Source: Bolinopsis microptera (lineage: Eukaryota; Ctenophora; Tentaculata; Lobata; Bolinopsidae). Taken from it: DNA of 64,000 nt. A program made the translations under genes and the position numbers. Shown in pieces: positions 2,936 through 64,000 of this stretch. Below the pieces are notes generated by a model. The model was not told the origin of the DNA, searched no databases, and saw only the letters and a list, made by a program, of their open reading frames with translations. Positions within the stretch are counted from its first letter, which is position 1, and each line of letters starts with the position of its first letter. Location of the stretch: NCBI RefSeq assembly GCF_026151205.1, contig NC_087080.1, positions 10,339,837 to 10,403,836 on the forward strand, given 5' to 3'.

Positions 2936-3030
2936 AGACCTGTACAGTGTACTCTACACAGTACACACGTGTACTTGTCACGTGTACACAGTACACACGT
3001 GTACTTGTCACGTGTACTTGTCACGTGGTA
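2936..3030. repeat. CACGTG-rich tandem repeat
   Basis: Imperfect tandem copies of a short unit built from GTACAC, CACGTGTAC and TTGTCACGTG fill this stretch. A looser cluster of ACCACGTGGT palindromes lies just upstream at 2747-2795. The repeat multiplies E-box cores (CACGTG), so it could bind bHLH factors, but simple minisatellite expansion explains it equally well. Confidence 0.6.
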
Positions 3031-29600: not shown

Positions 29601-32600
29601 TGGTCAGGAACTCTGATCCGTCGTTTGTAGTCGTCGTCAAGGTTCCGCTGTGATGAGATCTTCTTCCACAGGTTATTCGACTCCTTCACCAGGTTCTCCG
29701 TCTTCTTCTTGATGAGCTGTGTGAGCTGTTGAGAGGTGGGTTCCGCTACTGAGACAGTTTTACCGTTGATTTTTCTCGTGGGAAGCACACGCTGGTACAC
29801 AGCTGTCTCCTGGAGGTGATTCTCTGTTAGATGCCGATGTGTGTCCTTAGTTGTCACCACAAACTCACCGCACTTGTCTGATACCGACACGTGTAACGTC
29901 CTGTCTGTCAGAAGGGAGCGTAAACCATCTTTCTGAAAACGAGTGAGGTTATCCTGTGGGTTGGTGTTAGTCACGAGGTCCTGTACAAAGCGGTTAAACT
30001 GTGCCAGCTTGTCCTCTAAAACCGGGTGAGTGGGGTCAGGTGTACTGGTGAATGGTGAGGGAAAGGGACACAATCTCCTCACTTTGCTGGAACTCGACTC
30101 CTCGGTGGGCTCAATCGGGGCACTAACTTCCGCACTAGTGTCTGAGTTGGCACGTTGAGTGATAGCGTGTACGTGTTTGTGTCTGATCTTAAACACACAC
30201 TGAGCGATATCAACGGCAACTTTATCCTTGAATGACTGGTCAATTCGCGGAGACACGGCGAAGTTAGGTCCGAGAGCTAAAACTGACTTCTGCTGCTCGG
30301 AGACACTGTCGATGTTGAGAGTAGTGACTCTGTCGTCAGCAGGTTGAGTAGTGGATGGAGGAGGAGGAGGAGTAGGAGGGTAGTATTTCTCCAACAACCA
30401 AGAAAACTTCTTCTGTAAACGGTCCTTATAATGCTGCTTAACATAACGCTGGTGTTCCTCGCAAATAGTAGCAATACTGATGAAAGTAGAATGGTCCACT
30501 TTATGAAATAAACTGTCCTTCAACTGTAATAAATCACGTTTTCTGTCTGCAATAAACTGATACTGATATGATATGTGCTGTTGCAATGATAATGTTCTTA
30601 TTCTGTGCTGATAACGTGTTACACTGCCAGAATTCTGCCTCATCGGAAACAATGATGACTGATTAAACGTAGTACTGTTCAACATAAATACAGGAAAAAC
30701 TTGCTGTCGTTTACAGCAAGTAATATTGTTATTTGAGAGAATAGCACAGATATAACAGTATCCGACTATGTTAGGACAGTGCTCATTAAATATTGCTCAG
30801 CTTTTTGATACATTTTTAGTATATTTTCGGTATATTTTTGGTTTATTTCTGGTCTATCTCTGGTCTGCATGGCTCGACCTTTTTGTGGCTTTAATCAATC
30901 ATCAAACGTATAAAAAGGTAATGTTTCCAAATTACAGACATTCTGCATCACTAGTTGAGCTGCTCTTTGCTCGACTTTTAAATAAAGAAACATTATGTCA
31001 CCTCCCCAACTATGGTAAAATCAAATATTAGAGAAGACAAATTGGGAGTAAACAACATTTTCTTGAGTTCACGTAATATGGTTTAAAGCGTAAAATTGTG
31101 TTGCCTTAAAGGTCGGATATAACTACAAATTGGTGTCTTGCGCACATTTAGTAGCTCCTTCCTCGCTCCATTATTTAATGAAGATTGACCCCACCTCATA
31201 CTAGCTGTCAAATCTAATATCAAAGCGGACAAAGTCTACCAATTCTCAGTCGTTTACGTCACACTTTAAACAATGTTTTAAAAGCCCCAACAAATTTATG
31301 AAATTTAACAACTAGTACCTGGGTAGGGAGGGAGGTTCAAAAATCCAAAATATCGTCAAATAATTAGAAATAATTTTATCTGTTGCTTTTAAAGCTCAAT
31401 AACGACCAAAAAAGTTTCAATTTCCGACTGAGCTGGTAACCATCGACACATATTTTTTAACAAGTAAAAACATCAAAATTATAAGATTTATTATAGTCGT
31501 TCAGTTTATCACTTCGAGATGGCAGGGCCTACTCTCATGCTGTCTATAGGTGATAATTAATTCTGAAAAACTAGAGACAACTGGGGAATGATCCCAGAAC
31601 CTCGACATTTCGCGTGCCTTGCTCTACCAATTGAGCTACTGACCCTGATTCCCAGAGCGAAATCACCAGTCATATACAGCACAATTTCATGCTTTGTGTG
31701 GAATATCATTTATCGTTCAGTTTACTTATAGTAGATATTTTTGCTCAGTTTTGAGTATTTTTATTTTTGTTTAGACTTCTATTATAGTAAGTGAACAGTC
31801 TCTTGCAACTGGTCATTTCGTTTATCAGGCAATATAAAGCTAAATATCTCAATAAATACCCTAACGACTGTTTGTTAATTATTCCTGTAATGACATGTTA
31901 TGACCCGGAGGAGATAGTTTAAAAGTTTAAACATATAACTATAAGACAAGTTCACGCCACAATTATGGTCAACATGTCCACGAAGTTATTTGATTTCATG
32001 GGTGAAGTATGAATGGTGTGACCTAAATTTAGATCAAAAATATCGTTATTTGATAACGTAAACGCAAATCCAATTATTTGAAATATAACCGATGAACTAC
32101 TACCGATGAACTGGTCGCTTATATGCACTGGTTGCTCGATCAAGGAGCCATTATATTCTTGAATAATTTTGGTTCTTGGGGAATGGGTAAACAAATATAT
32201 TCAACAACAACTAAGTAATGAAATAATACTTACTTATATTAGCCCAGAAAAGAAAAGGCTCAACCAAGGCAATAAAAATGAGTGCAGTCACGGTAATCCC
32301 AATCAACATGTTGGCGTTTCGTCTAAAATCGTCAATGTTGTTCAACATTGCCCGCCCCAAGATGTTCTGAACTGTTTTAAGCTGCTCGTTGTACAAACTT
32401 ATCACTGAAATAAGAAATGAAGGTAGGTAAGTGTTGGATGATAATGAAGATTGTAACAGGAACGGGGTTTTTGAAGGCCGAATTTTCTATTTTTTAAAGT
32501 TGACCGTGTTTGGTGTTTCCGGCGATCATAAAATCAACAGTTCAATAATTCTAGGATTTTGTTAAAAGGATAAATTAGATATATAATATAATATATACCT

Positions 32601-35600: not shown

Positions 35601-38600
35601 TATGGAGAAAATGGAAAAACCTATGAGTAATTCTCCATTTTCTCCATTTATGCCATTGGCCCCCCCCCTATATAGCGTGACCAAATGCCAATGAATTGTG
35701 TCTACTTTTCGAGGACATTTCAGATACATTGTCTAATAAAACCTCCACGTGCCCGGGTGGCATGGTTGATGTGATCAATATCCTATATGAGTTGTCGACC
35801 CACGCGGTTTGGACCAGGTACATAAATTGCATCGCTTGATTGTTGTATTGTAGGCAATGCTATACAGTTTAAGGTGTGTGCTGTGTGTCGTAACCACGAG
35901 GCAAGTTAACCATGAAGCTCACGCAGCTGAATATGCTCAGAACTTATAACCTCTGATTATAACGCAGTTTTTGCAAGCATGACGTTAAACTTGATAAAAA
36001 ATGAAGTGGCGGAGTAGAGTCAAAGCAATTGAAAATTTATTTCCACATAATTTGATCCAAATTTAAGCTTTGATTCTGCTCAAACGCCAGACATCTTCCG
36101 TTTATCTTAAAGACTGCAGTGTTGGACCATGCACTTTGACTTGCTTTTGACGTAAGATGGATGGGAACTTCTAGTTCTACTTCAGACTGCCAACAAAAGT
36201 TCATTTAAACCGGTAAAGATCCGATTTATAACGCGTTAAAACATGGACTGAGATAAATTATATAAGTCATCTTGCTGCTCCTATTATAACAGTATTGGAA
36301 TTAAATTAAATTCGATACAAGTTTCAGTTGTCTTGTTTGGTTTGGCTTCCTTTTTTAAATGTGGGAATCGTTTGTTTGCGAATTTGTAACAAGAATATTG
36401 TATTATAATTTTGAGTAAACATTAATCGAGTAAACCGCTCGATTCCCAATCAATACCTTATTGGCTCATTGGCCACAACTAAAACATTTTATATTCTGAA
36501 TTTTTAGCATCTAAATTATTTATATTTTATTTTCCGTTTCTTCCTAATACTCTAATATCATAACGATAACATTCTTGGAATTGTCGGACAAATTCTTGGA
36601 ATCCGATGATTAATTGGGTGATCATTCAGCCGATCAGTTCATTTTTCACAGAATTGTTCAGGTGCTCATTCAATAACCTATTGTGCACGTGGTATCACCT
36701 CGGAGGAGGAGTTATTGAAAGGTTCTTCAAATGAAATTGCTAAAAACCGGACGTATTGGTTGAAACTATACTGCAAAAGTATTGACTTTAATAGCTCTTT
36801 GCAGTGACATTCATCGCACGATTAGTTGTGGGTTCGCGGCTTGCAATAAGTTTCTAAATCAAAATGCCTGGACCAAAAGATATACCTTTGCCTATAATTT
36901 GATCGCACTTATCCTTAAATATGAATCATGAACAGTGATTCTTCTGCGGCCGTTAACTTTCTGAGTTCAAAAGTCTGCGATTCTTTATCATGGCGATACT
37001 ACAAGTTAACTTAAATTCAAATTGTTAAGTTTAAAAATCTGCTATCTGCTCAAATAGCTAAAGGTTACGCGAAGTTTGTTGTATTATATTTAAAGCTGTA
37101 ATCAGAGCTGATTAGTTTAATGTGCTGTTTTATCAGATTGTGACGAAAATAATGATAAGATGCCATAACACCATGCACATTATAACCTTCCACATATGCC
37201 AATATTACCAGTATCTAAATTACAACCTTCCACATATGCCAACATTACCAGTATCTAAATAACAACCTTCCACATATGCCAACATTACCAGTATCTAAAT
37301 TATAACCTTCCACATATGCCAACGTAACCAGTATCTAAATTATAACCTTCCACATATGCCAACATTACCAGTATCTAAATTATAACCTTCCACATATGCC
37401 AACATTACCAGTATCTAAATTACAACCTTCCACACATGCCAATATTACGAGTATCTAAATTATAACCTTCCACATATGCCAACATTACTAGTATCTAAAT
37501 TATAACCTTCCACATATGCCAACGTTACCAGTATCTAAATTATAACCTTCCACATATGCCAACATTACCAGTATCTAAATTACAACCTTCCACACATGCC
37601 AATATTACGAGTATCTAAATTATAACCTTCCACATATGCCAACATTACTAGTATCTAAATTATAACCTTCCACATATGCCAACGTTACCAGTATCTAAAT
37701 TATAACCTTCCTCATATGCCAACATTACCAGTATCTAAATTATCGCTCATTAGGACAAGGCAAATATGTCTGGATACTGGTATAAAAGAACTGTATTTAT
37801 AGTTTTGACACTTGACAGAGATTTTGGGTTGTGATAGTTTAATACCGAGAGCTGATCGGTTAGTCGCTGTCACCTGCCAGAAAATATCAGACATTAAAAC
37901 CCGAATTTTTAACGGTATGTTTGACGGATGCTATTGACAATCAGTTGTCAACCCTAAAACAAAGTGTCACACTTCTTGACTTTTCTTAGGCAATTAATCT
38001 AGTCATAACAGTGAGATACCGTTCATCTGCACTGTGGGGGAGCACTATTGGGAGGGGGGTGGTGGGGGAGCACTATGGGGAGGGGGGGGGGGGGGGAGCA
38101 CTATGGGGAGGGGGGGTGGTGGGGGACACGTCAACAGTTGCAATTGGGAATATGTTAAATATGTTAAATATGTTAAATATGTTAAATATGTTAAATATGT
38201 TAAATATGTTAAATATGTTAAATATGTTAAATATGTTAAATATGTTAAATATGTTAAATATGTTAAATATGTTAAATATGTTAAATATGTTAAATATGTT
38301 AAATGTTTTATGTCAGTGTTATAGCCCAATATATTTTATTCGCATATGACGCAAACATCATCGTTTCTGCAGACACGTTCACTGAACTGATCATGCGTGC
38401 AAATAGTGCTTTAAATGCTGTACAAACGTGGGTTAATAATAACAGTCTTAAACTTAATGTAGGTCAAATTAAATATTTTTGAAAAAAATATATATTAGAC
38501 TGGCGTAGAACTACCCAGGTCCCAGAAGTCTGACGACTACACTATGATTATGAAGGGGGATTGCTGGCCAGTTTATTTATTTATTGATGCATTATTTCTG

Positions 38601-41600: not shown

Positions 41601-44600
41601 AAAACAATGTGTTGAAGTTCACCAAAGTTCGTCATTTTACAATTTAGAGAATCAAGCCATGAAAACTATTTTTCACGATATTTATTTTTGAAATGTAACT
41701 TAAGACATAAACAATACCAGCCAAAAGATCTTGAATTTTTGGCCACCGATTTCATGTGTTAAAAACAAGAAATATTGCAGTACTTGAAATCCTTTTAGTT
41801 GAAACGAATCCAATTTACCGCTATCAAGACAATTCACGAGTTGCACAATTGCGATTTAAATGTGCATGGCACAACTGAGAAAATATTGTACATTATTTAC
41901 GATACAAGCTACTCTATTTTCTTACAAATATTTAAAAAAAAAGAAAGAAACTTCCTCCCTTAATTATCGCCTAAAATAACCCGATTTTATCCCAGATTTA
42001 TGCACCATGTTTGAACTATCTGGATGGAGATCTTACTACACGGCAAACGGGATCCTCACTACAGGGGAGTTTCTCATCGGTACCAGCCTCAACCTCATCT
42101 GCCTCACTTACTTTCTCCGTAAACGCTGCTCCGCTATAAACCTCCTCTTTGTGTTCGTCAGCGGAACCGACCTGGCTCTCTCTTCCATCATGCTCTTCTC
42201 TGCCATATCCGCCTTCGCAGAGGGGAGACCCCTCATGTTTGAGAACAAGCTGTTCTGCAATATCTGGGGACTGATCTGGCATACAGCCTGTGGGTTCTCC
42301 ATTTATCTGATGGCTGTGTTGGCGATAACTCGCTGGCTCGGCCTGGTTCACCCTTTGAGGAGGATAAAGAGGAGGTTCGTTGCTGTGAGCATCCTCATCT
42401 ACCTGGCAATCCAGATCTTCAAGAGCACCATGAACTATTGGTACATGGAGAAGGCATACAGCTACAATCCAGTATTTTTGGGGTGCAGTGTCAACAACAT
42501 TAACACTCAAAATATCACAGTTCTCGACAAGCTGCTCTACACCTTTCTCTACATATTCGAAGTTCTCTTACCAGGAATCCCTGCCATCGTTTTCTCCATA
42601 GCAACATTCGTAAGCCTCCTTAAAAAGGACAAGAACCTCCAGAGCAACAATGGGGCACCCCTGTCTAAGAGAGTGTCACCCAATAGAAGATGTACAGCAA
42701 CCAGCGAGATGGAGGACCCACTACATGGACACTCGGGATGGGAGAAGAAGAGAGATGCAACAATCACCATCCTGATCCTTATTGCAACTTACCTGGTGCT
42801 CAACCTTTGGTTTTGGTTGTTGACGCTAGGGGACGCTTTCTACATATTTTCTGATAAGACTCTGAACTATACCACCATCTGGAATGGTGACGTGAAATCT
42901 TACTACATGACCTACTATGTTATATATATTCACACTGTTGTACTAAACTCAGTAGCCAATGCTATTATATACATTTTTAGACTGAAGGGTATTAAGACTT
43001 ATATTATATATATGTGTAAATCTGGTAAAAAAACTGAAGTTTACTCGAATAGAGCTGTGTTGAAGAGAAAGCCAACCGCTATGTCTGTTTTCTATCGAGT
43101 CTCAATTAATAATGGCATTAATTCTGGCTCCACTGATGTGGTGCCCTAGGAAATGTATAGGGTTTTGTTCTTTTAGCTTTAATATTTCTTATTTTGTGAG
43201 TATAATTATTAAGGATGTTACAGATGGAATATATTTAATGTAGTTCGAAGAGTCTTGATCCCCTTCACGTCCTTCTTATATGGTCGCCGGTTTCTGGCCT
43301 AAAAAGCTCTATTCGCGTTCAAGATTAGCGTTTCTTTTGTCTATATAATAGAAAATAAACTAAAATACTAAGATATTGTAATAAGTGCATTAATTTCGGC
43401 TCGCGAGAGCGTAAAAATAGGTATTGACCTAATAACTCAACAACCTGAAGTCTGTAGACTTTAAAACCATGATCTACCCCACTCAATAAGATAATGCTGA
43501 CCATTTTTATGCCCAAGATGAGCCCTTATCTCTCATCAGAAGCTGAGATATCTTGTAATAAGTACATTAATTTCGGCTCGCGAGAGCGTAAAAATAGGTT
43601 TTGACCTAATAACTCAACAACCTGGAATCTTTAGACTTTAAACCATGCTCTACCCCACTCAATGTAATGATGCTGACAATTTTTATGCCCAAGATGAGAT
43701 TTAAGCTCCCATCAGAAGCTGAGATATCATGAAATAAGTGTGGCAATTGTTACTCGCGAGAGCGTAGAAGGGCGTGGTCACATAACTTATCAACCTTAAG
43801 CATGAGGACTTTAAAACCAGGTTCTAACCCCCTAAATGTGATGATTCTAATCATTTTCATACAGTTGATATAGTTGATCTCCTTTCTCCGATCAGAAGTG
43901 GAGATATGTGGGTTTAGATATCGCGAAAGGGCCAAAAAAAGGGCGTGATCAATTGCACAAAACTGCCCCATATTGAGAAAGTCTACCCAAACCAAATTTG
44001 TTCCTTAGGGGTCCCTTGAGCCGTTCCAGGTCTCAAACCTCGGGGCGGAAGACGTTTCTACTGGAATATTCTCAGATCCTTGATTAAAAATATCACCTTC
44101 CTTCTGTCCCATTATAATCTTGATAAGAGTGTTTCAAGGTTTTGCACAGACTTTATTTTAAACACTTTAGAACACATTGCACATAGATGATTGTATTAAA
44201 AATGGCAATGTGGCTTAAAAATATTCATCTGCTGAAAATATTCATCTTACACTTAAAATACTGATTTATTGGATAGCTCCCTTTAATATCTTATCTTGAA
44301 GTTGAACTTATATTGACTATGTATTAGATTTTCAACTTGATTGATCAATAGACTGTTTTTTCTAGCTCCTAATTTCTTTGGTATCACTACCACCTTTTCA
44401 TTTTGTAAAATAAAAAACCATAAAGTAGAACACGAATTGAAAGTATCGGCAACTAGAACGAACACCGATGCAACAATAAGACAACATTAAGACACCAATA
44501 AGACAACATTAAGACATTAAAAAGTATGATATTGTAGTACCTGCGATCCAGTTGATGCCCATAGACTTGGAAGCTTCCAGGCTCTGATTGTTAAGAATCC

Positions 44601-47600: not shown

Positions 47601-50600
47601 TTAAAGCACGACACTACCATCATCACACATTAGGTGCTCCACCCCAAATTTAATCAATTTAAATCAAAATTTGCGCAGTATAAACAGCACAATTTAAACC
47701 ACTTTTAACCACTCTGCCCAACACTACTTACCCACTTCATATAGTACTTCATATGTGGTACGCAAGGCTATTTTAAGTTTCAACTAAATACTGATTCGGA
47801 TAAACGGTGCGAATGCCTTTACAACCCATCAAATACGTCAGCAATTCCTTTTTAAGGTCGACCATTCGACGATAGTTAAAGCATTGAACGTGATGTTAAA
47901 TCATTTTCAAAGTGGTGTAATGTCTAGACGGAACGATAAGTTATTCACGAGAGCGATAACTGGACAGAATACCCACCTTCTATTTACTGATGCAAAAAAT
48001 TGTATTGGACGTTTAACCTTCATTTGCTGTCTGATTGCGGGAAATATTATTCTTGAGAATACCTTCGGTGTAAAAGAACATGCCGATAGCATCAATCTTA
48101 GCTGCTCTACTCTGTATCTCCAGTAGACACTTAAACGCTACTAGCATCTTCCACTTTCGTGTTCCAAACAACGCTGGTTCTGAGGGAGTGATTTTTTTGA
48201 GCAACTTATTTTAATTATTGTAGTAATGAGTCAATTTTCAATGTCATGATTGGTATTTGAAAAAAGTTGTTCAACAGATAGGTAACACAGTTGTAAAGAA
48301 CCGCAGACCATCAAAAATTAGCGACATAATGCCCGAGGAGATCCCGAATAGGTCACTTTTATATACCTTACCAGGCTGCATTTGAAGTTTGAACGGACAT
48401 TAATTGGACGCTAGTGGCCCTAGCGTTCATTTTAATGTCCATTCACACAATATCCAGTCAAATAACGCGCGATGAGATAATCAAATAAACCCGTTTCTCT
48501 CTTACCTTCGCTAAAAGTATACACAACTGATTGCACAAGTATCTCCATTACTTTGGTGTAGAATGAGTTCACATGTAGAGTCAAGTTGTTGATGGCAGCA
48601 CTTGTTGAAGGGGGAACTCTTATTTCACGGAACTTTTCGAGAACATCCTGCAAATTAATTGCGTCTTGGTTATAAAGATTTTAAAATGGGCATAACTCGG
48701 CTAAATTTTTAATAATCAACGTTAAATTTTGGGAAAGGTTTTCGATTATCAAAGCGAATGTGTCTAGAAAATGTTAAGTTTCTAGCTCAACGCGTTCTCA
48801 TTTTATTATGAAAATAGTGTAACAGAGAAAGTCTTGGTTTGACCAATATCTATAATAATATCTATAATCTTTTTATCTATAAAATTTTCATGCAATTGCC
48901 AATTTTTACACGAATTACGTGAGTTATTGATAATATTGAAGGGTTGCATGTGGGCAGTTATTTCTGGGCCACTCTGTAGTAGTTATAAAATAGTATAATA
49001 AGCAACTTGGCTCCTTCTTAAACTTTATTTACGGACAAATTTTACACGGTTATCGCATAAGTATCTACCTAAAAGTAATGAATTGATTATAGTTCACTCG
49101 TAGTAACTTAGTAACTAAGTAACTTAGTAACTAAATAACTTAATATGTGAGAAAAAACAGGTCTGAAGTGGTCGTAGTATGAATAACAGTTGGCCAATAC
49201 TAAATAAGGAAACGAAACTTCAAACAATCTGTCAACTGACGTAACAGCGAAAGGCTGGTTCGGTTGTCTGGTTGTCTGGTTGTCTACGACTACACATATG
49301 ATTTACTGCGGCCGTTTTTGTCAAAACCCTGTTTTACCGCGAACGCCGATTGTTTTCACCCAAACTCTGCGGTAAATCAGGGTTTTACTGTACACATATG
49401 TGACTAATGGCTATATAGTTAATTAAATGCACAACATAATTAAGATTAAATAAAATAATTGAACACAAGATAATTCTAAATCCAGCTATAATCTACGATA
49501 CGTCCAGACACCTGATATAGCCAGTTTCTTATCCAGATATTTTTCCTCACTCACAAGAGTGCAATATAAAAACGTAGACTATGGATCGAGCGAGGTACCC
49601 ATCACTGCAGGGGTGCACGCTTATACTTATACTACGCATCACTGAAGGGGTGCACTCCAATGGATTTTGCCACGTCACTTTCCAGATCCGAGCCGACGCA
49701 TGTTGGCTTGGCAGAAGCGTTTATCCCCAAATCAAGGCTAAAACCATTGAATCATAGACCCTGTATCTATCACAGCTCAATATACAAGCAGGAATAAATG
49801 CAGTGTATAAAGGATTTGTCTCGAGAGGGATTTAAACAAGCGACTTCTCGACAGATTTTCCTAAACTACAATTGTCACAGCATTGCGCCGACAAATAATG
49901 TCAAGCAGATTACATTGTGGTTGCTATGGTAACTCACATCTCTCTTCTGTAGAAAGTTGAGGCTGGTGTTGCTTACAGATTATATTGTGGTTGCTATGGT
50001 AACTCACATCTCTCTTCTGTAGAAAGTTGAGGCTGGTGTTGCTGATCTGAAGGTTGTCTGTCTCGCTCTCAACAAACCCCTTGCCCATGGCAGTGTACAG
50101 GATGTATTCTTGTGGGTTGGTTACTGTCAGGTATTCTGGAAATCCTGTTCTGTACAGCTCGTTTATCCTCTTGTCCGTTTCAATCTGTGAAAATATCTGT
50201 GAAATTGTTATTCTTTATCATATTATGTTTATAATATGAATAATTTATTTGATATCTCCAGAGAGTTTTTCTAGAACCTGTTTTTCTAGTACCACCTGCA
50301 TAAATTGGTGGTTGAGATCCTTGAAAATGACGACTTTAATCCTTTTAAAGCAGTTACCCCGATTTAGGGTTACTTGATTAATAGGGTTAAACTCTGGTTA
50401 TAACAATTATCATCGCGCAAGTAGACGAATAATTTGCATTTATATAGAGAATTTTAGACCGGCGTAAAATCTGCACCGTGGCGGGGGACATTTGTCAGAT
50501 AGCAAGTAAAAATGAACACGCCTGAGGCCACCAAAGGAAACAAATTTTTGGCCCATATTCACTATGGGGGGAATGCAACGTCAATTAATGTCAATTAATG

Positions 50601-53600
50601 TCAATTAATGTCAATTAATGTCAATTAATGTCAATTAATGTCAATGTCAGTTTTGCAAAATTTTGGAATACTGACATTAATTGACACGATATTTTTCGAC
50701 CAGAGATTATGTAGTTCTACCATATTGTTAGCACTTTAGAACGTTTATATCATCAATTTATTCACTACTATCACATATGGAAATGTGAAATGTGAAAAAA
50801 ATTCAGATCATTAAACAATAAAACTAAAATAATACGGTTTCCCGAAATTTAATTTTCTTAAATGGGCGTGGCCATCCAAGGGCGTGGTTCTCAACATCAT
50901 CAGAACTTAAAACCCACATTAAACGAAATGCCTTCATGACATTTATATTTGAATAACGAATCTTAAACAGCTAACATTACTCCTTCATACTAAAAAAGCC
51001 GATTCTAAATATTTTACCTGTATAAGAAACCAATAAAATATGGGCGTGGCCGGTGGGGACCGAAGAAGGAAGAGTTGGAAGCTGAAATTTTTTTTGGTGG
51101 TCTTTGAACCTAAGGATCAACAGATAAGAACATACTCATAATTATTCAAGGACATTTTGTTTTTTTGAACCGGTCTAACTTACATAGACGTGAATATCTT
51201 GAATATTTATCGAATAATGATAATCTCAAATTTCAAGACATATTAATGTCAATTAATGTCAATTAATGTCAATTAATGTCAATTAATGTCAATTAATGTC
51301 AATTAATGTCAATTAATGTCAATTAATGTCAATGTCAGTTTGGGGTTTTTATGGAATACTGACATTAATTGACGTTGCATCACCCCCTTCACTATAAATT
51401 AAACATCACTGCATCATGAGTCAGTAATTGAAAGGATGAACCACAAATATAACAATGTTTTCTAAGAAGATTTCAACTTTCATCTTAATACGGTAGACCG
51501 CATACCTGGGCATGCTGAAGTTTGTTGAGATTCCCATGCGAACGATCCATTACATACTTGAAGGTAAAGGACTGTTCTCTGAGGATTTCTGTCATTAAAT
51601 TACCAATCTTCATGCCTGAAAGGGTACGTATTGCTTATTATATTATATTGCAATAATACGTATTGCTTTCTTGATTAGAATTTCAGCGCATACTTTTGGG
51701 TTACTTTGTCGCATCCATTAACTGGTAATGAGGATTTGCTCATCTTGATTATTGATTCTTAAATGTTTTCTACTTTTTTTTTCTCTGTTCTCAAAACTTC
51801 ATAATCATAAGATTTTCTTGTGTACCTTGTAATATTCGCATCTCGTAACGTTTGACTTCAGGACTGTGGGAAAGAGCTTGATACACATCGAATCCTGAAA
51901 AGGAATTCAGTCATTAACTTGATAACTCGAACTTAAGTCGGCGTAATTCCCAGACAATATCGATATGTCATTTTGGCTAAAATTAAATTCACGGTGCACT
52001 TTGATCTCGACAGGTGCCTCCCACTCAACTGATTTGAGGAACACAGATGGTTTCTCAACTTATACCCATATATTTGGGTTACTTGTCTCATAATTACTGT
52101 CTCAGAAAACCGGATTTATAAATACTCTGTGATACCGGATAGAAGTCTGGATGTCGGTGGGAGGGGGGTTTGGATTTTTAGTAAAATGGTTCCTGATAAA
52201 GCCACCTCCCCTCCCCCTCTCCCCCTCCCTCCCCCATACCGTTTAAACATCAGTTAACCGGCGATCTAACCTTTAATTAAACTTCATCCGGTTTAACACC
52301 TTTGACGTCTGCATATTTTAAACACCTTTCAAGAATCAGACGCGTATTATCTTAATCAGAAACTCCCAAACAATTTATTTAACAGGAAGTTTAACACGTA
52401 GCTGACGTAGTAAATAAGTATCAATACTGTAAATATTAGTCAGCGTCAAACTCCAATCAGTAGGTATTTGACAAGCAGTTTAGTAGGGACGATCACCTAA
52501 ATCTGAGCCCAAATATAGTGCCGGAATTCACTTACCCGCGATATAGTGTCAGTATTCACTTACCCGCAATATAGTGCCAGTATTCACTTACCCGCAATAT
52601 AGTGTCAGTATTCACTTACCCGCAATATAGTGCCAGTATTCACTTACCCGCAATATAGTGTCAGTATTCACTTACCCGCAATATAGTGCCGGTATTCACT
52701 TACCCGCAATATAGTGCCGGTATTCACTTACCCGCAATATAGTGCCGGTATTCACTTACCCGCGATATAGTGTCAGTATTCACTTACCCGCAATATAGTG
52801 CCAGTATTTACTTACCCGCAATATAGTGTCAGTATTCACTTACCCGCAATATAGTGCCAGTATTCACTTACCCGCAATATAGTGTCAGTATTCACTTACC
52901 CGCAATATAGTGCCGGTATTCACTTACCCGCAATATAGTGCCGGTATTCACTTACCCGCAAAAAAGTGCCGGTATTCACTCACCCGCAATATAGTGCCAG
53001 TATTCACTTACCCGCAATATAGTGCCAGTATTCACTCACCCGCAATATAGTTCCAGTATTCACTCACCCGCAATATAGTGCCAGTATTCACTTACCCGCA
53101 ATATAGTGCCAGTATTCACTCACCCGCAATATAGTGCCAGTATTCACTTACCCGCAATATAGTGCCAGTATTCACTCACCCGCAATATAGTTCCAGTATT
53201 CACTTACCCGCAATATAGTGCCAGTATTCACTTACCCGCAATATAGTGCCAGTATTCACTCACCCGCAATATAGTGCCAGTATTCACTTACCCGCAATAT
53301 AGTGCCAGTATTCACTTACCCGCAATATAGTGCCAGTATTCACTTACCCGCAATATAGTGCCAGTATTCACTTACCCGCAATATAGTGCCAGTATTCACT
53401 TACCCGCAATATAATGCCAGCATTCACTCACCCGCAATATAGTGCCAGTATTCACTCACCCGCAATATAGTGCCAGTATTCACTCACCCGCAATATAGTG
53501 CCAGTATTCACTTACACGCAATATAGTGCCAGTATTCACTTACCCGCAATATAGTGCCAGTATTCACTTACACGCAATATAGTGCCAGTATTCACTTACC

Positions 53601-56600
53601 CGCAATATTATAGTGCCAGTATTCACTTACCCGCAATATAGTGTCAGTATTCACTTACACACAATATAGTGCCAGTATTTACTTACACGCAATATAGTGT
53701 CAGTATTTACTTACCCGCAATATAGTGCCAATATTCACTTACACGCAATATAGTGCCAGTATTCACTCACCCGCAATATAGTGCCCGTATTCACTTACCC
53801 GCAATATAGTGCCAGTATTCACTTACACGCAATATAGTGCCAGTATTCACTTACCCGCAATATTATAGTGCCAGTATTCACTTACCCGCAATATAGTGTC
53901 AGTATTCACTTACACACAATATAGTGCCAGTATTTACTTACACGCAATATAGTGTCAGTATTCACTTACACACAATATAGTGCCAGTATTTACTTACACG
54001 CAATATAGTGTCAGTATTTACTTACCCGCAATATAGTGCCAGTATTTACTTGCCCGCAATATAGTGCCAGTATTCACTTACCCGCAATATAGTGCCAGTA
54101 TTCACTTACACGCAATATAGTGCCAGTATTCACTTACCCGCAATATTATAGTGCCAGTATTCACTTACCCGCAATATAGTGTCAGTATTCACTTACACAC
54201 AATATAGTGTCAGTATTCACTTACACACAATATAGTGCCAGTATTTACTTACACGCAATATAGTGTCAGTATTCACTTACACACAATATAGTGCCAGTAT
54301 TTACTTACACGCAATATAGTGTCAGTATTCACTTACACGCAATATAGTGTCAGTATTTACTTGCCCGCAATATAGTGCCAGTATTTACTTGCCCGCAATA
54401 TAGTGTCAGTATTCACTTACACACAATATAGTGTCAGTATTCACTTACACACAATATAGTGCCAGTATTTACTTACACGCAATATAGTGTCAGTATTCAC
54501 TTACACACAATATAGTGCCAGTATTTACTTACACGCAATATAGTGTCAGTATTCACTTACACGCAATATAGTGTCAGTATTTACTTGCCCGCAATATAGT
54601 GCCAGTATTTACTTGCCCGCAATATAGTGTCAGTATTCACTTACACACAATACAGTGTCAGTATTCACTTACACACAATATAGTGCCAGTATTTACTTAC
54701 ACGCAATATAGTGTCAGTATTCACTTACACACAATATAGTGCCAGTATTTACTTACACGCAATATAGTGTCAGTATTCACTTACACGCAATATAGTGTCA
54801 GTATTTACTTGCCCGCAATATAGTGCCAGTATTCACTTACCCGCAATATAGTGTCAGTATTCACTTACCCGCAATATAGTGCCAGTATTCACTTACACGC
54901 AATATAGTGCCAGTATTCACTTACCCGCAATATAGTGCCAGTATTCACTTACCCGCAATATAGTGCCAGTATTCACTTACCCGCAATATAGTGCCAGTAT
55001 TTACTTACCCGCAATATAGTGCCAGTATTTACTTACACGCAATATAGTGCCAGTATTCACTTACCCGCGAAGAGGAGCAAAGTGATCAGGGGAACGGACA
55101 GGAAGACGGAGGTTCTGTAAAAGACCTTTTTAGCGTCCGTGTCACTGAACTTTTGTGGGAGTGCTGCTAAATCCTGATCCATGTCTGGTAACATGACGTC
55201 AACCTGAACAGTATTACAGGTTACATGTGACCCTATGTGATCCTGTGTGATCCTGTGTAATCCTGTGTGATCCTGTGTAATCCTGCGTGATCCTGCGTGA
55301 TCCTGTGTAATCCTGTGTAATCCTGTGTGATCCTGTGTGATCCTGTGTAATCCTGTGTGATCCTGTGTAATCCTGTGTGATCCTGTGTGATCCTGTGTAA
55401 TCCTGTGTACTCCTGTGTAATCCTGTGTGATCCTGTGTAATCCTGTGTAATCCTGTGTGATCCTGTGTAATCCTGTGTAATCCTGTGTAATCCTGTGTGA
55501 TCCTGTGTAATCCTGTGTGATCCTGTGTAATCCTGTGTACTCCTGTGTAATCCTGTGAGGGATGACTATTGACTAGCGAACAGAGCTTATTTGGCCAATC
55601 AAGTTTATTCGATTCAAAATTAAAAGTTAGACATTTAAATCGTTTTAATCCGACCGCACACAAAATTTCAATTTCGATTAGTTTGCCTTCAACTCAAAAG
55701 TAGATGTTGCAGGCCGCAGCCGGGTTTAGAACAGTTTTTCGGAGAAAAATCCGTCCGAAAATTCGTCGTTATGAAGCGATATGCCGGAACACGATACAGA
55801 TTCCCATTACTCAATAAAACATCCTGTGATCTTATTGACTTATTCTGTGTTATCAGACATCCTTCGGAAGGACACGGGGCTTGACGACAGCAAGGAGATT
55901 AACAAACTCATGCTGGATAGACAGATTTGGAAAAAAACTATTTCTGTTCGGACGTTGAAGCCGCCCTAAGTCGAGTCGAGTAAGTCGTGTGTTATCAGGC
56001 TCAGAGGATCATGGGACCTATATGATGTGTGGTCTCGAAGTTATCCTTCGGATTCTCGAATGCTTGACAAGTTGACAGGTCATTAAATGATTACGTTATC
56101 TTCCTTGAACTTAACGAGAGAGCTTCAAACATTTGAAATAAATTTTTCACCACAGCGCCTTTATCCCTGTTACAGACTTTAAAGGTATGATTGTCATATC
56201 ATGATAAGTGCAGCCCAACTACCAACTTTATAGTCTCGTTTTATAGTAAACGCAATACGCATTAAACAAAGCCGTTTTTCTTTATAGTTTCGAGTATACA
56301 CGATATGAGCCATAATTCAATATACATTGTTCAAGAAGTGTTCACAAAAAATTCCAATTCCTGATTCCGTTTTGGTTCGGTTCAGTAAACCAATTAAGTT
56401 TGGAATTAAAGTTAATGTTTATCACTTCTATTCCGATAAAATATTCCATAACCATGAGATAAATAATACATATTTGCTGTAAAGCTAAACCTCTGGCTCT
56501 GGAAAGACAGGCTAAGCTGGCATCTCAGTAAAACCACAATAATCAAACCGTAAGTTGTATCTCTCTGATTCTAACCTGAGTGAGGTCCTTGATATTGTTG

Positions 56601-59600: not shown

Positions 59601-61708
59601 ATTGACGAGATATATGTCGCTTCTATTCTCGTATGATTTTTATTTTTTAAAATAGCTCAAAATGAATTTTTTGCTTTTTTTGTTACCGTAAGCTATTTCG
59701 ATTTTAAGCTATATTTTTATCATTTTATTGGTTTTTTTCTTTTTTCTTCCCTTTTTTTCAAAAAACTTCTTTTACCTTAACAAAAAAACAAAAAAATGTT
59801 ATTACCCCTACTTAGGACGTCCGCCAAAATCTCGGATTTTCAGTCCACCCTCCCCCTTGTCCGAATTTTCAAACCCCCTCCCTTCCGGACTTCCGGATTT
59901 TCCTAGGTTTATGAGGTTCAGATCCTTGATTTTACTGTGACTATAGTACTCTCAGTTGAAGTTGGGGCTTGGCACGTTATTATATCAAAGAAAATGAAGC
60001 CACCACCCTGTTCTTCATGCTAATTTTGATGTTCAGCTCCTATCATCTCTTTGACCAATCTCAACTGACAACTCTATAAATATCCCTTACCAGTTACCAC
60101 TTTTGCTGAGTGCTTTTATTTTAAAGAGCTTTTATTTTAAATTACCATCATTTATAAACCAAAACCACAATTAATGAGGATTTTAAGTTTTAAATTTATT
60201 AAAAAATAGACTAATGTCGCCGTGTGAGGTACTATACACCATTTAACTACACTCAGGAGTCAGGTTAGAGTGACTGACTTTATCTAATCTTAAGTGAGAA
60301 TATTATACCAGACCGAAGTTGTTGATTAAAAATTTTTTCTACCACCAAGTCCAACAAAATAGAAAAATAAATATTCCTAACACCATACTTTATTTAGCTG
60401 GATTATAGCATAAGCTGTAGTTACTAATTAGAGGACTGCAAACAATGTTTCAGTTTATTTTCATCGTTAATCAAATTTTAGCTGTGTTTAAGCCGATGCC
60501 CATTAATTCCCATGCCCATTTGACCAAACGTTTAGGAGTAAATGGGTATGAGGTTCCCCCCCCCCCCCCCCCCCCCATTAATTTTCACATGGGCCACAGA
60601 AAGGTCAAGATGCCAAGTTCACTCTATTAGATTTAATATTGCATTTTGGCCGGCAGTATAATCGAAACAACTTGATGGATTTTTCGTGACTGCGCTCTAA
60701 AAAAATACTTAATTCAGTGGACCAAATTAATTTGAAGCAAGTTTCATTGGGGTCGCAAGTACTAAATTGTATGAACCATTGCAATTTCCATCAAACATCC
60801 TCTATAGTCCCAACCACTTTCAAGTAATTTAAATACAATAATCGTAATGTAACCACTTATCTAACTATCTAAAAGTTCGTACATCCCTGCTCACCAGTTT
60901 TCCAAGCCCCAGGTAAAGCCGAGGAACTCACCAGTTTTCCAAGCCTATAGTACAGCCGAGGAACTCACCAGTTTCCAAGCCTCAAATACAGCCGAGGAAC
61001 TCACCAGTTTCTCAAGCTTCAAGTACATCCGAGGAACTCACCAGTTTTCCAAGCTCCAGGTAAAGCCGAGGAACTCAACAGTTTTCCAAGCTCCAGGTAA
61101 AGCCAAGGAACTCACCAGTTTTCCAAGCTCCAGGTAAAGCCGAGGAACTCACCATGGTTTTCCAAGCTCCAGGTAAAGCCAAGGAACTCACCAGTTTTCC
61201 AAGCTCCAGGTAAAGCCGAGGAACTGAAGGAATCTCTGGAACCAGGGTAGGATGTAGTCTCCTCCCCAAGAGTCGTTCTCGTGGGCTGCTTCTTCGTCTC
61301 TGTACCTAGGATGGTAATAAGTTACCAATTTCGAAACTACTGTTACCAATGGTAACTACTATTACCAACAAACTGCTCACTGTTGTTACTGAATATTTTT
61401 ATGGCGGTTGTTAAAGACTCTTAGTCTTATTGGCATTATTTATATAAACAGTGGTGAATTGGATACTTTTTCGGCCTCTGGAAGGAGTAGATGAGACAAA
61501 AATAAACTTGACGAATCCATAAAATTAAAAACACAGCAATACGACCAAAGTAACCCAAATAGTAAAAACACAGTAACCAAGGTAACCTAAGCACACGTTA
61601 CCTTCTAGTGATGTGATCATTGACATTATCCCGCTCGGTCTCCGGACCGAGCACGTCCGCGTGCGGGTTAACCGCGCGCACAGGCTGCGCGTTCACTGCG
61701 GGACTCAT
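23100..61708 (-). CDS. NIT-domain receptor guanylate cyclase, 18 exons, 898 aa
   Basis: Exons (minus strand): 61708-61602, 61305-61192, 58416-58284, 56662-56576, 55203-55065, 51894-51826, 51615-51506, 50184-50008, 48647-48506, 44969-44831, 44614-44541, 32404-32234, 27064-26879, 26705-26578, 25916-25761, 24721-24595, 24032-23944, 23648-23100. They sum to 2697 bases, all junctions agree in phase, and all introns are GT-AG. Order: cytosolic Ser/Gly-rich N-terminus (1-177), TM1 (178-194), extracellular NIT sensor (about 200-430), TM2 (461-485), signalling coil ending KLVPADIAKKL (518-534), class III cyclase domain (about 545-728), acidic tail to 898. There is no kinase-homology domain, unlike natriuretic-peptide-type receptors. 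Proteins of this layout are known in annelids and other invertebrates and have been linked to nitric oxide or nitrate/nitrite sensing. The product would make cGMP at the membrane; a catalytic Arg is missing (see the catalytic entry). The gene carries unusual splice-site repeats. Confidence 0.85.
25956..26015. repeat. Tandem CACGTGCACGTG repeat
   Basis: Three copies of a unit of about 25 bases, each with the double E-box palindrome CACGTGCACGTG, lie in intron 14 of the cyclase gene, about 40 bases before the exon 15 acceptor. It could be a bHLH-binding intronic element or a simple minisatellite. Confidence 0.7.
26471..26582 (-). repeat. Duplicated exon 14 donor (2 x 55 bp)
   Basis: The end of exon 14 and the start of its intron, AAG|GTACCATAAT and the following 40 bases, are repeated in tandem. 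The coding donor is at 26577/26576, the copy at 26522/26521. Use of the copy would retain GTACCATAA, which gives an in-frame TAA after two codons. Confidence 0.8.
28025..30685 (-). mobile_element. Penelope-like retroelement, full-length ORF of 886 aa
   Basis: One uninterrupted frame from ATG 30685 to stop 28025. The centre is a Penelope-type reverse transcriptase with KFFAADISALYTNI (motif A), GLFMGLRPGP and FYKRYIDD (catalytic YxDD). The C-terminus has a cysteine-rich stretch (CSINSCKICPLIVC) followed by a GIY-YIG endonuclease: VVYKIKCKLCDQLYVGETSR, the catalytic Arg in RVGEHL and Glu in IFEAMF. A zinc-finger-like patch before the nuclease is known from some Penelope-like clades. No frameshift or stop is seen, so the copy looks recent and possibly active. 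It lies in intron 12 of the cyclase gene, in the same orientation. Element ends are not defined; a small inverted repeat CTTGCTGT/ACAGCAAG lies just upstream at 30701-30721. Confidence 0.9.
31577..31645 (-). repeat. tRNA-like sequence, probably SINE head or tRNA pseudogene
   Basis: Read on the minus strand it starts GGGTCAGTAGCTCAATTGG, a typical eukaryotic tRNA D-arm (A-box), followed by an anticodon-like loop with CGC and a B-box-like GGTTCTGGGATC. The T arm is out of register and the acceptor ends do not pair, so a functional tRNA is unlikely. It is in cyclase intron 12. Confidence 0.4.
32598..32674. mobile_element. 77-bp MITE with TA ends
   Basis: CCTTGGCTTTT at the left and its complement AAAAAGCCAAGG at the right are flanked by TA on both sides, which suggests a Tc1/mariner-type target. 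A similar inverted pair, ATAATACCTTC and GAAGGTATTAT, lies at 33373-33466 and shares the internal ATAATTCCCG, so it may be a sister element. Confidence 0.6.
32871..33210 (+). mobile_element. tRNA-Val-like SINE
   Basis: The head has A-box TAGCGCAGTTGGTTAGAACG, an anticodon-like loop CTTACAA (TAC, valine) and B-box GAGTTCGAAACCC. GGCCAGG can pair with CCTGGTC, but the spacing is wrong for a tRNA acceptor stem. A unique body of about 260 bases follows. The right end near GTAAAATAAG is approximate, and no clean target duplication was found. Confidence 0.65.
33993..35668. mobile_element. hAT-like non-autonomous element, outer copy
   Basis: Terminal inverted repeats begin with a G run then CCAATGGCATAAA, mirrored at the right end as TTTATGCCATTGG then a C run. 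The 8-bp duplication TATATAGC flanks it (33985-33992 and 35669-35676). The interior contains large inverted segments (GGGGAGGCCTGCCTTCCGAG at about 34749 and 35012, and its complement near 35340) but no transposase. A second element of the same terminal type is nested inside. All of this lies in cyclase intron 11. Confidence 0.8.
34344..34680. mobile_element. hAT-like MITE nested in the outer element
   Basis: 337 bases, ends G-run + TACCAATGGCATAAA and complement. The 8-bp duplication GGGGAGAG occurs at 34336-34343 and 34681-34688. The inner half is itself an inverted repeat (ATGGCATACGTTTTATGGCA occurs in both halves). The nested position shows that this family kept moving after the outer insertion. 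Confidence 0.8.
35700..37180. other. Cyclase intron 11, unique part
   Basis: AT-rich intronic sequence without a recognisable exon, RNA gene or bounded repeat. Confidence 0.5.
37181..37742. repeat. 40-bp minisatellite, 14 copies, with 160-bp higher-order repeat
   Basis: Unit TATAACCTTCCACATATGCC + AACATTACCAGTATCTAAAT. The variant order shows a four-unit block (37381-37540) repeated exactly at 37541-37700, so the array last grew by duplicating a 160-bp block. It lies in cyclase intron 11. Confidence 0.95.
38036..38126. repeat. G-rich minisatellite (GGGGAGCACTAT units)
   Basis: Three to four units of GGGGGAGCACTATGGGGAGG with long G runs, up to 14 Gs. The plus strand has many G tracts and could form G-quadruplexes. 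It directly precedes a 9-bp repeat. Confidence 0.85.
38151..38304. repeat. 9-bp tandem repeat TATGTTAAA, 17 copies
   Basis: Perfect TATGTTAAA units in a row. Because the period is three codons, open frames on both strands are artefacts of the repeat. Confidence 0.95.
38339..38482 (+). mobile_element. LINE reverse-transcriptase fragment
   Basis: The frame FAYDANIIVSADTF...ANSALNAVQTWVNNNSLKLNV is the end of the palm domain of a non-LTR reverse transcriptase (consensus FADDT...W...N.L.LN..KTK) with the YADD box damaged to AYDA. It stops at TGA 38480-38482. A short stretch with (TTTA)n follows. Only this fragment is left. Confidence 0.7.
39851..39922. repeat. Perfect 24-bp inverted repeat with AT loop
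   Basis: ATAAAAAGCATTAATATACA.. at 39851-39874 is exactly complementary to 39899-39922. The 24-base loop is alternating AT. It is probably a small foldback element or a cruciform-prone site. Confidence 0.8.
39923..42006. other. Upstream region of the nested GPCR
   Basis: No exon or RNA gene recognised. It contains short TAGTAG repeats at 41513-41535 and the family terminus CTTCCTACACCCCTGC at 40431-40446. The GPCR promoter should lie in the last part, but no clear TATA or initiator was identified. Confidence 0.4.
42007..43149 (+). CDS. Class A (rhodopsin-like) GPCR, single exon, 380 aa
   Basis: Seven hydrophobic helices with class A marks: Asn29 (TM1), Asp55 in VSGTDLALS (TM2), Cys84 at the top of TM3 and Cys160 in loop 2 for the conserved disulphide, and TM7 NSVANAIIY (314-322). 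The DRY box is T108-R109-W110, keeping only the Arg. TM6 (ATITILILIATYLVLNLWFWLL) lacks the usual Pro, and NPxxY is NAIIY. The third intracellular loop (about 205-250) is basic and carries candidate phosphorylation sites. N-glycosylation sites Asn169 and Asn287 are in outer loops. The extracellular N-terminus is only about 15 residues, so a small ligand or peptide is likely, but the subfamily is unclear. The start has a good context (CACCATGT). It is nested in cyclase intron 11 on the opposite strand. Confidence 0.85.
   Translation: MFELSGWRSYYTANGILTTGEFLIGTSLNLICLTYFLRKRCSAINLLFVFVSGTDLALSSIMLFSAISAFAEGRPLMFENKLFCNIWGLIWHTACGFSIYLMAVLAITRWLGLVHPLRRIKRRFVAVSILIYLAIQIFKSTMNYWYMEKAYSYNPVFLGCSVNNINTQNITVLDKLLYTFLYIFEVLLPGIPAIVFSIATFVSLLKKDKNLQSNNGAPLSKRVSPNRRCTATSEMEDPLHGHSGWEKKRDATITILILIATYLVLNLWFWLLTLGDAFYIFSDKTLNYTTIWNGDVKSYYMTYYVIYIHTVVLNSVANAIIYIFRLKGIKTYIIYMCKSGKKTEVYSNRAVLKRKPTAMSVFYRVSINNGINSGSTDVVP
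43371..43935. repeat. Tandem repeat of about 175 bp, three copies
   Basis: Three successive units start at about 43371, 43545 and 43721. Each has ATTAATTTCGGCTCGCGAGAGCGTAAAAATAGG or a decayed form, then CAACAACCT, ACTTTAAA, CTACCCCACT and TCAGAAGCTGAGATAT. Units 1 and 2 are about 90 percent alike; unit 3 is more diverged. The length resembles satellite monomers. It begins about 220 bases after the GPCR stop. Confidence 0.8.
45767..46434. mobile_element. MITE with TA target and AAATTT-rich interior
   Basis: The left end CCTTAATTCCCAAAAATTTG matches the complement of the right end (CAAATTTTTGGGAACTAAGG), and TA flanks both sides. The sub-terminal regions repeat GCCCAAATTTTT-type motifs. No transposase frame. 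It is in cyclase intron 9. Confidence 0.7.
46771..46880. promoter_or_regulatory. CCAAT-cluster with E-box in cyclase intron 9
   Basis: Three CCAAT boxes (ACCAATCAG, CCCAATCAC, ACCAATTTCC) and a TCACGTGA E-box lie within 110 bases. CCAATTTCCTGTCACCTCC is the complement of the ATTGG/GGAA/E-box arrangement seen at 925 and 4467. It may be an intronic promoter or enhancer, but no transcript start is visible. Confidence 0.3.
49906..50044 (-). repeat. Duplicated exon 8 donor (2 x 70 bp)
   Basis: The last 27 coding bases of exon 8, its donor GAT|GTGAGT and the following intron bases occur twice in tandem (50044-49976 and 49975-49906). The coding donor is 50007/50006 and the copy 49937/49936. The copy would add 70 bases, which shifts the frame in exon 9. 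Confidence 0.85.
50566..51387. mobile_element. hAT-like non-autonomous element with sub-terminal tandem repeats
   Basis: The 8-bp duplication TTCACTAT is at 50558-50565 and 51388-51395. The ends read GGGGGGAATGCAACGTCAAT and, in complement, GGGGGTGATGCAACGTCAAT. Just inside each end is a run of the 10-bp unit TCAATTAATG (six or seven copies on the left, about nine on the right), followed by GTCAGT...ATACTGACATTAATTGAC. No transposase. It is in cyclase intron 7. Confidence 0.85.
52510..55064 (-). repeat. 28-bp minisatellite made of 5' splice sites, about 90 copies
   Basis: On the minus strand the unit is GTAAGTGAATACTGGCACTA + TATTGCGG. The first unit is the genuine exon 5 donor (TTCGCGG|GTAAGTGAATACTGG), so the array starts exactly at the exon-intron junction. 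Nearly all copies keep GTAAGT. Frequent variants are GTGAGT and GCAAGT, both accepted donor classes. Longer 31-bp units with an extra TTA (about 53607, 53862, 54145) mark higher-order blocks. Retaining the sequence from exon 5 would give GGT AAG TGA, an immediate stop. It fills most of intron 5. Confidence 0.95.
55213..55556 (-). repeat. 10-bp minisatellite before the exon 5 acceptor, about 34 copies
   Basis: Minus-strand units ATCACACAGG and ATTACACAGG repeat up to about 10 bases from the branch/acceptor region of exon 5 (acceptor TGTTCAG at 55204-55210). Each unit has CACAG|G, an acceptor-like AG without a pyrimidine tract. The period makes a long open frame (HRITQDYTG) on the minus strand that is an artefact. 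Confidence 0.9.
56640..56750 (-). repeat. Duplicated exon 4 acceptor
   Basis: The exon 4 acceptor and first coding bases (TTTCAG|GTAGGAGGGGGAGTGTACTC GGGAGG, junction at 56663/56662) have a decayed copy 68 bases upstream (TTTCAG|GTTGGGTATGAGTGTACCC, junction 56731/56730). The copy would enter a TGA after ten codons. Confidence 0.7.
58830..59275. repeat. Relative of the interior of the 33993 element
   Basis: TACGGACTTC..AAAACCGAAAAA.TA.TTTCGGCT.ATAATG...GTAGCATGAAAC and the AAAATTTTTGACTTAGAAAA block match the interior of the element at 33993-35668, and the stretch ends with GCTTCCTACACCCCTGC. It is a partial or diverged copy in cyclase intron 2. Nearby 59640-59940 is T-rich without a gene. 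Confidence 0.6.
60896..61228 (-). repeat. 37-bp minisatellite seeded by the exon 2 donor, about 9 copies
   Basis: On the minus strand the unit is GTGAGTTCCTCGGCTTTACC + TGGAGCTTGGAAAACTG. The first copy is the last 34 coding bases of exon 2 plus its donor (AACTG|GTGAGT at 61192/61191). Copies near the exon are almost exact; those farther away drift. Most keep GTGAGT, one has become TTGAGT. Reading on past the true donor gives TGG TGA, a stop. Confidence 0.9.
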
Positions 61709-62951: not shown

Positions 62952-63954
62952 TCAAAGGTTAATAACTTGATCTACAATATCAGACGACATAGCGCCTCTC
63001 ACAGCAGCCTCCCCCACCACATCTCTCGGTGGAACATGTCCGGATATCATGTCCGTCAGATTCTCCCTGACCCTCCCCGCCAGGGCACTCTCCTCTGCTC
63101 CCACCTCCCACGTGGCTGGAGTAGAGGAGACTGGTGGTTTACTGAGCCGGGCCGCTTGTTCCTGGTGTAACTCCGCAAGCAACCCGCTTGTTTTTTCTAG
63201 TTTTTCTTGCAGTTCGGGGTCCTCGCAGGCTTGCTCTAGTTTGCTTTGTAGAGCTGGGTCGTTTATTATGTCGGGGATATCGTCTGATTCTAGCAGCTTC
63301 AGCAAAGATTCCTCCTCTTTGATGATGTCCTCTGGTTGGTGTTTTGGTAGTTGAGTCTGCTTATCCTCCGCAGCAGTGCCTGGTTCCTCTGTTTCAGTAG
63401 CGGATGACCCAGCAGAAACGCTAGTTGCTGATTGAGAGGGTATTTTCATGGTATTTCCTAGTCTCCTTGCTCTTAGTAGACGTTTCTCTCGGATAATCTT
63501 AGCGTACTTTTGAGCGAGGAGTTTGTTAGCCTTTACATGACCACCGGCCGTCAGACTGTTGATAATGTTATCTACTGGCTGGCGGAGAGAGTCATGACAA
63601 CCCTTGGCAAACTCTTGGACACTTCGACAGTAAGCCAGACCTATCTCATCACCATAGCAACTGTAGAGGAGCTGCTGATCCTCATCATCAAGACTGCTGA
63701 ACACTGAGTCGTAGCTGGGCATGAAGCTGCCAAATGGACCGTAGTGGAGGTACTGGGGCGGTTTGTTGGGTTGTCTCTTTTTTTCTCTAAAGTTGTTGAG
63801 AAGAGAGGTGGTGGTATTTTCGTGGGGTTCAAAGCAGGAGAGGTCAACAGGCTTCTCTGCCGGTTCCCCGGGCTGAGCATTCATTATATTCAGGACTACT
63901 GTGTTGGTGTCTTCATCTTTAGTCAGGTATCCTATTCTAGTTTCACTCGCCAAC
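62952..63954 (-). CDS. BRD7/BRD9-type protein, last exon (partial gene)
   Basis: The exon begins at 63954 after a CAAACAG acceptor and runs to TGA at 62952, giving 333 residues. The first codons, LASETRIGYLTKDED, are internal: the first codon is TTG, not a start. The segment PQYLHYGPFGSF..YDSVFSSLDDED..LLYSCYGDEIG with VQEFAKG and GGH matches the conserved region C-terminal to the bromodomain in BRD7/BRD9 (DUF3512). Near the end, LEKTSGLLAELHQEQAARL matches their C-terminal helix. In animals this protein is a subunit of a SWI/SNF chromatin-remodelling complex (PBAF for BRD7, ncBAF for BRD9). The bromodomain exons lie outside the window to the right. Confidence 0.85.
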
Positions 63955-64000
63955 CTGTTTGCAGTGCAGATTTAAGATTTGTAAAAGCATTTTGAGTAAG

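Follow-up and report, generated by a model that had tools for sequence, protein, structure and literature searches.

A stretch of 64,000 nucleotides (nt) from the ctenophore Bolinopsis microptera (NCBI RefSeq assembly GCF_026151205.1, contig NC_087080.1, forward-strand positions 10,339,837 to 10,403,836), referred to in its full length as the window, contains a gene in which 2553 of the 3170 bases of one intron belong to a minisatellite that begins at the intron's own 5' splice site. The array probably is a minisatellite of the mirage type known from amphioxus, which arose from a duplication of the exon-intron junction, was tolerated because the donor at the exon edge is used, and then expanded. 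A short tandem duplication would once have covered the junction, i.e., the last four exonic and the first 24 intronic nt including the donor, and would have grown by unequal exchange or slippage to the 91 copies that now lie within the intron. If splicing takes the copy at the exon edge, the mRNA would remain unchanged and the array could persist. The same type of duplication would have struck other donors and some acceptors of the ctenophore genome. The evidence consists of the same junction in a paralogue that lacks the array, donor letters as variable as the rest of the unit, the recurrence of the architecture in the genome, similar arrays at acceptors, one array whose copies have lost the donor, a possible early stage elsewhere in the host gene, and the amphioxus mirages, which have the same architecture and are reported to be spliced normally.

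The array, its junction and its host gene

The array (52512-55068, minus strand, as are all coordinates of the host gene) was delimited with Tandem Repeats Finder (TRF) and by unit alignment. In the window TRF reports a period of 28 base pairs (bp), 91.0 copies and 92% matches, the unit being GCGGGTAAGTGAATACTGGCACTATATT. The first unit opens with GCGG, which are the final four nt of the exon, followed by the donor (GCGG|GTAAGTG); the genuine donor CGG|GTAAGT, from -3 to +6, occupies 55059-55067. The initial annotation of the window, which described a 28-bp array of about 90 copies starting at the gene's own donor junction, was thus correct in this respect. The exon (55065-55194) begins with ATG at 55194, encodes MLPDMDQDLAALPQKF..LLLFAG and ends in phase 1 with ..TTCGCGG at 55065. 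The intron opens at 55064 with GTAAGTGAA, extends to 51895 and ends with CCTTTTCAG. It is followed by a second exon, FDVYQALSHSPEVKRYEMRILQ (51826-51894), and a third exon, read from the sequence, MKIGNLMTEILREQSFTFKYVMDRSHGNLNKLQHAQ (51506-51615).

A paralogue on contig C8 (L001) matches the host gene exon by exon, including the first exon, an open frame, and the second. Joining of these two exons yields LLLFAG|FDVYQALSHSPEV in the host gene and LLLFAG|FDVYQALSQSPEV in the paralogue. The paralogue intron lies at the same position in the same phase 1 (AG|FDVYQ), has the donor GTTTGG and measures 147 bp, in which TRF with a minimum score of 30 found no array. Since intron position and phase are common to both genes, the exon junction at the start of the array is confirmed at the level of genomic sequence, and with it that the unit spans an exon-intron boundary. 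Because the array-free paralogue shares the intron, the array cannot have given rise to the host intron, which argues against intron gain by tandem duplication of an AG|GT sequence.

The exon had been numbered exon 5 of a NIT guanylate cyclase. The number finds no support, as the exon opens with ATG in both paralogues and is the first identifiable coding exon; non-coding exons may precede it. As to the gene product, a guanylate cyclase is hinted at by an HNOBA-like linker in the joined paralogue (E 9.5e-5, below the cut-off), the counterpart of which lies in the window at 26948. The NIT part of the name was not supported by a Pfam match, either in the genome (the control genomes likewise had none) or in the joined paralogue, and none of the four motifs of the cyclase catalytic domain that were tried was found.

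At positions +1 to +6, 75 of the 91 units read GTAAGT, ten GTGAGT and six GCAAGT. These variants had been listed correctly, whereas a T at -1 in 31 units had been overlooked. Many, not all, copies thus hold a regular splice signal, with GT in 85 and GC in six. The donor 9-mers are CGGGTAAGT (44 units), CGTGTAAGT (19), TGTGTAAGT (12), CGGGTGAGT (10) and CGGGCAAGT (6). According to the sequence a premature stop is retained for all 90 downstream donors if they are used, as the initial annotation had stated for the inner donors. Any such array offers a natural test of how a 5' splice site is chosen. In the present one 91 donors compete, and since 40 of them, including the genuine one, are identical from -3 to +8, the right donor can be told apart mainly by where it lies with respect to the exon. 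Recursive splicing through the array is unlikely, as the array contains neither CAG nor TAG.

Another array, of 33 copies of a 10-bp unit (CAGGATTACA/CAGGATCACA, minus strand), is located at 55226-55557, separated by approximately 30 nt from the first coding exon, which is thus placed between a 10-bp array upstream and the 28-bp array downstream.

Junction arrays and other features of the window and genome

The 265-Mb assembly, consisting of 232 contigs, was searched for triplets of donor motifs with a spacing of 10-40 nt (GGTRAGT) or 10-45 nt (longer motifs), and the reversed pattern served as control. GGTRAGT triplets numbered 8573 versus 964 (9-fold), AAGGTRAGT triplets 726 versus 38 (19-fold) and CAGGTRAGT triplets 790 versus 11 (72-fold), all of these being counts of units in which long arrays weigh heavily. 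The unrelated motif GATGRGT yielded 1070 and its reverse TGRGTAG 3977; because such counts vary about fourfold, the GGTRAGT count alone provides a weaker contrast than those of the longer motifs. In the case of GGTRAGT the enrichment did not appear to stem from a commoner single motif: outside the arrays of the window, lone motifs occurred 11 times versus 14 times for the reverse (small numbers).

Among the matches listed (the first 100 places for each of the three patterns) there were 21 distinct donor-motif arrays, all of which were inspected; boundaries between arrays and exons were called by eye on the basis of open frames and splice consensus. Nine arrays have the orientation of the open frame that they adjoin and start at its donor. 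Two of them adjoin paralogous sushi-like exons (L003 and L009; E 0.043 and 0.0038, below the cut-off), where units of 34 bp and 54 bp, respectively, occupy the same kind of junction. L010 follows an exon that, joined with another, resembles Img2 (E 1.1e-7, below the cut-off), and L011 follows a DPH2-like sequence (E 2.9e-7, below the cut-off), the exon itself giving no Pfam match and no match in a PDB search. L012, L054, L055 and L056 adjoin open frames without a Pfam match, and L049 an open frame that follows an acceptor. Five arrays are associated with an exon of the opposite strand, either at its acceptor or no farther than approximately 35 nt from it: L007 at a copine-like exon (E 1.5e-4, below the cut-off), and L005, L006, L052 and L053 near exons with LMF1_C (E 1.7e-28), a weak methyltransferase match (E 0.09), MoCF_biosynth (E 1.9e-13) and an open frame, respectively. 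L013 lies in antisense orientation within an intron, close to the donor of a CUB exon. The first 23-bp unit of L012 (C1:17645700) lies wholly within the open frame and the start of the intron resembles duplicated exon sequence, which makes it a candidate case of an intron extended or gained through tandem duplication.

The six GATGRGT control arrays listed were also inspected. Five had no recognised exon and one (L021, C1:4052977) adjoins a SPARC_Ca_bdg exon (E 2.1e-8), at whose donor it starts; the copies of this array read GATGAGT and lack GT, which is kept at the site on the exon edge. The pattern counts and the 21 inspected arrays rule out a unique, gene-specific system, and a special character of the locus is not supported, given that the same architecture recurs at donors and some acceptors of the genome.

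Arrays of acceptor motifs were found as well. Triplets of the acceptor-like TTTNCAGG, spaced 10-45 nt apart, numbered 1564 versus 223 in the control, a 7-fold excess, part of which is background because lone TTTNCAGG motifs in the window outside the arrays are also commoner than their control (12 versus 4). L007 has a unit that takes in the acceptor together with 17 exonic nt. Together with L067 and L068 it provides three acceptor cases beside the nine donor cases, so that in the genome as a whole both 5' and 3' boundaries are covered. In one intron between two sushi-like exons (L003/L028, C1:400757-402100) the 34-bp donor array occupies the 5' end, and at the other end an acceptor-like array with a 19-bp unit (TTACCCTCAG) reaches the next exon. 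L063 and L064 have one 20-bp array and its flank in common; some minisatellites are thus dispersed.

Smaller duplications occur in the window and the paralogue. A 70-bp sequence at 49906-50043 (minus strand; TRF, 2.0 copies, 98%) forms a tandem duplication that includes AGAGAT|GTGAGT, the likely donor of a later host-gene exon. A 37-bp array of 9.1 copies at 60890-61225 (minus strand; TRF and sequence) starts in an open frame (..FLGFTWSLENW) and repeats the donor CTG|GTGAGT; the open frame, which has no Pfam match, belongs to a separate gene or is a further exon. The paralogue contains a perfect 23-bp duplication of 2.1 copies across an acceptor. By their structure these three repeats look like earlier stages of the proposed process, and the two-copy duplication in the host gene itself possibly is such an early stage.

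Other features of the window are a 40-bp array of 14 copies (37179-37743), an open frame of 923 amino acids (28025-30796, minus strand) between host-gene exons that resembles a Penelope-like reverse transcriptase, an open frame of 389 amino acids (41980-43149, plus strand) that is nested within the host gene in opposite orientation and resembles a seven-pass receptor, and an open frame (62952-63971, minus strand) with a match to DUF3512 (E 4.6e-38), a domain that also occurs in BRD7/BRD9. A photoprotein query had 55 matches in the genome, the best with E 1.2e-121 versus berovin and E 2.4e-121 versus mnemiopsin 1. Many are tandemly clustered, with a spacing of approximately 0.94-1.0 kb at C1:21999412-22006929, C5:17012730-17026401 and C13:11082451-11094340.

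Donor constraint and the origin of the array

The initial annotation assumed that donor quality is kept across the array and considered three consequences, sequestration of the U1 small nuclear ribonucleoprotein (snRNP), a check on splicing, or neutrality. The U1 RNA of the genome has the canonical 5' end AUACUUACCUG. Predicted pairing with it is at least as strong as that of the genuine donor in 54 of the 91 copies, among them the first, and weaker in 37. For comparison, each of the 17 distinct substitutions was shifted to a randomly chosen position that has the same base. The observed mean pairing of -10.05 kcal/mol did not differ from the -10.4 kcal/mol (standard deviation 1.2) obtained after relocation (P=0.61). 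Of the 9 donor sites 4 are variable, and of the 19 other sites 10, with a mean diversity of 0.111 and 0.061, respectively. Because U1 pairing equals the relocated-substitution null, there is no sign of preserved donor quality in the 28-bp array. Of the three options, neutrality comes closest to the mirage-type origin proposed here.

Several observations weigh against this origin. Across 11 donor-spanning arrays only 11 of 99 donor sites are variable compared to 65 of 291 other sites (Fisher P=0.018). The stratified expectation is 19.3 variable donor sites (P=0.006), and the difference persists when CpG sites are excluded (9 of 96 versus 54 of 275, P=0.026). The sample comprised two window arrays (P=0.14) and nine donor-motif arrays (P=0.019), so that nine of the 11 had been found through intact donors; L021, whose copies without donor would have added variable donor sites, was omitted. 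In a sliding-window version 0 of 20000 draws were as low, but the stratified site test is relied upon because the windows overlap and are few in some arrays (two in L037). A donor variability of about half the expected is not predicted by neutrality and constitutes a lead, not a proof of function. Furthermore, six of the 21 listed donor-motif arrays (L002, L004, L008, L014, L050 and L051) are without a recognised exon, L002 and L004 belonging to one dispersed 39-bp family and L008 consisting of three units. Among the 13 listed acceptor-motif arrays, all of which were inspected, only L067 and L068 clearly span an acceptor; L057 precedes a long open frame by approximately 75 nt and L066 an open frame by approximately 170 nt, and the remaining nine have no recognised exon (for L060 the inspected sequence stops within the array).

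The lowered donor variability, the canonical U1 end and the predicted pairing of 54 copies would agree with a functional array whose copies bind U1 snRNP and thereby restrain productive splicing or block premature cleavage and polyadenylation (telescripting), for which one AATAAA and one ATTAAA are present in the host intron beyond the array. The 28-bp array itself exhibits no constraint, however, and more than a third of its copies, 37 of 91, are weaker than the genuine donor. L021 has copies without donors, acceptor arrays display a similar pattern without U1, and titration of U1 by a single locus would hardly be plausible. We therefore consider a U1 function quite improbable. Somewhat less remote, yet still doubtful, is a mutational preference, in which a process tied to transcription or splicing would direct tandem duplications to splice junctions beyond what tolerance explains. 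The 9-, 19- and 72-fold excesses of donor-motif arrays over reversed controls, in the face of lone GGTRAGT motifs that are not enriched in the window outside the arrays, and the different units at the two paralogous sushi-like exons point in this direction. Against it stand the weight of long arrays in the unit counts, unrelated controls that range from 964 to 3977, a sample that was picked through the donor motif, and the surplus of lone acceptor motifs in the window, to which the 7-fold acceptor excess is partly due. A misassembled repeat or a wrong exon junction would be conceivable insofar as long arrays are prone to misassembly and the junction is known here from genomic sequence, but the paralogue has the same junction, the unit carries exonic letters along with the donor, and nine other arrays are built alike, which makes an artefact extremely improbable.

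The mirage-type origin leaves room for a broader proposal, which at present seems unlikely: exon-intron junctions of this ctenophore would be a preferred birthplace of minisatellites, the donor letters of the copies would be partly preserved, and hundreds of donor and acceptor arrays would be plausible in the whole genome, by extrapolation from the initial 2.7 Mb of C1, where there are seven GGTRAGT arrays. If it were true, the spliceosome would routinely pick the exon-edge site among dozens of nearly identical ones, and junction-linked duplication, perhaps with weak selection on the copies, would feed intron growth.

Relation to known systems

A human interferon-induced transcript reportedly contains a minisatellite that supplies multiple splice donor sites (Turri et al. 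in 1995, by title). By that title several donors are used in the human gene, in contrast to the ctenophore array, in which the inner donors would all give a stop. The human gene is presumably 6-16 (IFI6). Among 12 of 233 literature matches there was no report of such repeats in a ctenophore, which does not prove their absence. In human segmental duplications, minisatellites with units of about 30 bp occur, some at exon-intron boundaries, and are tied to exon elongation or new introns (PMC2812944), unlike the ctenophore intron, which, judging by the paralogue, did not arise from its array. A minisatellite linked to alternative splicing in Caenorhabditis elegans is a different, recurrent element (PMC4039745).

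The closest counterparts are the mirages of amphioxus, so that the initial statement that no such system had been described does not hold. They occur in Adh3, the globin genes BflGb6 and BflGb9 and troponin C, with similar imperfect repeats in PGBD5; the units in Adh3 measure 10-72 bp and regular splicing is reported to be undisturbed (PMC3087553, PMC3902484). The amphioxus mirages and the 28-bp array have the same junction-spanning architecture. They differ in that the globin mirages of the cephalochordate consist of 3-6 copies versus 91 in the ctenophore, that normal splicing was demonstrated in amphioxus by reverse transcription PCR and is deduced for the ctenophore array, and that length instability was observed in amphioxus whereas the ctenophore array is known from one assembly. 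The occurrence of mirages in a ctenophore, far from amphioxus, suggests that introns grow through tandem duplication across their junctions more widely than the reports on amphioxus would lead one to expect. The array thus belongs to a known kind, which in this instance occurs in a ctenophore and does so repeatedly across the genome.

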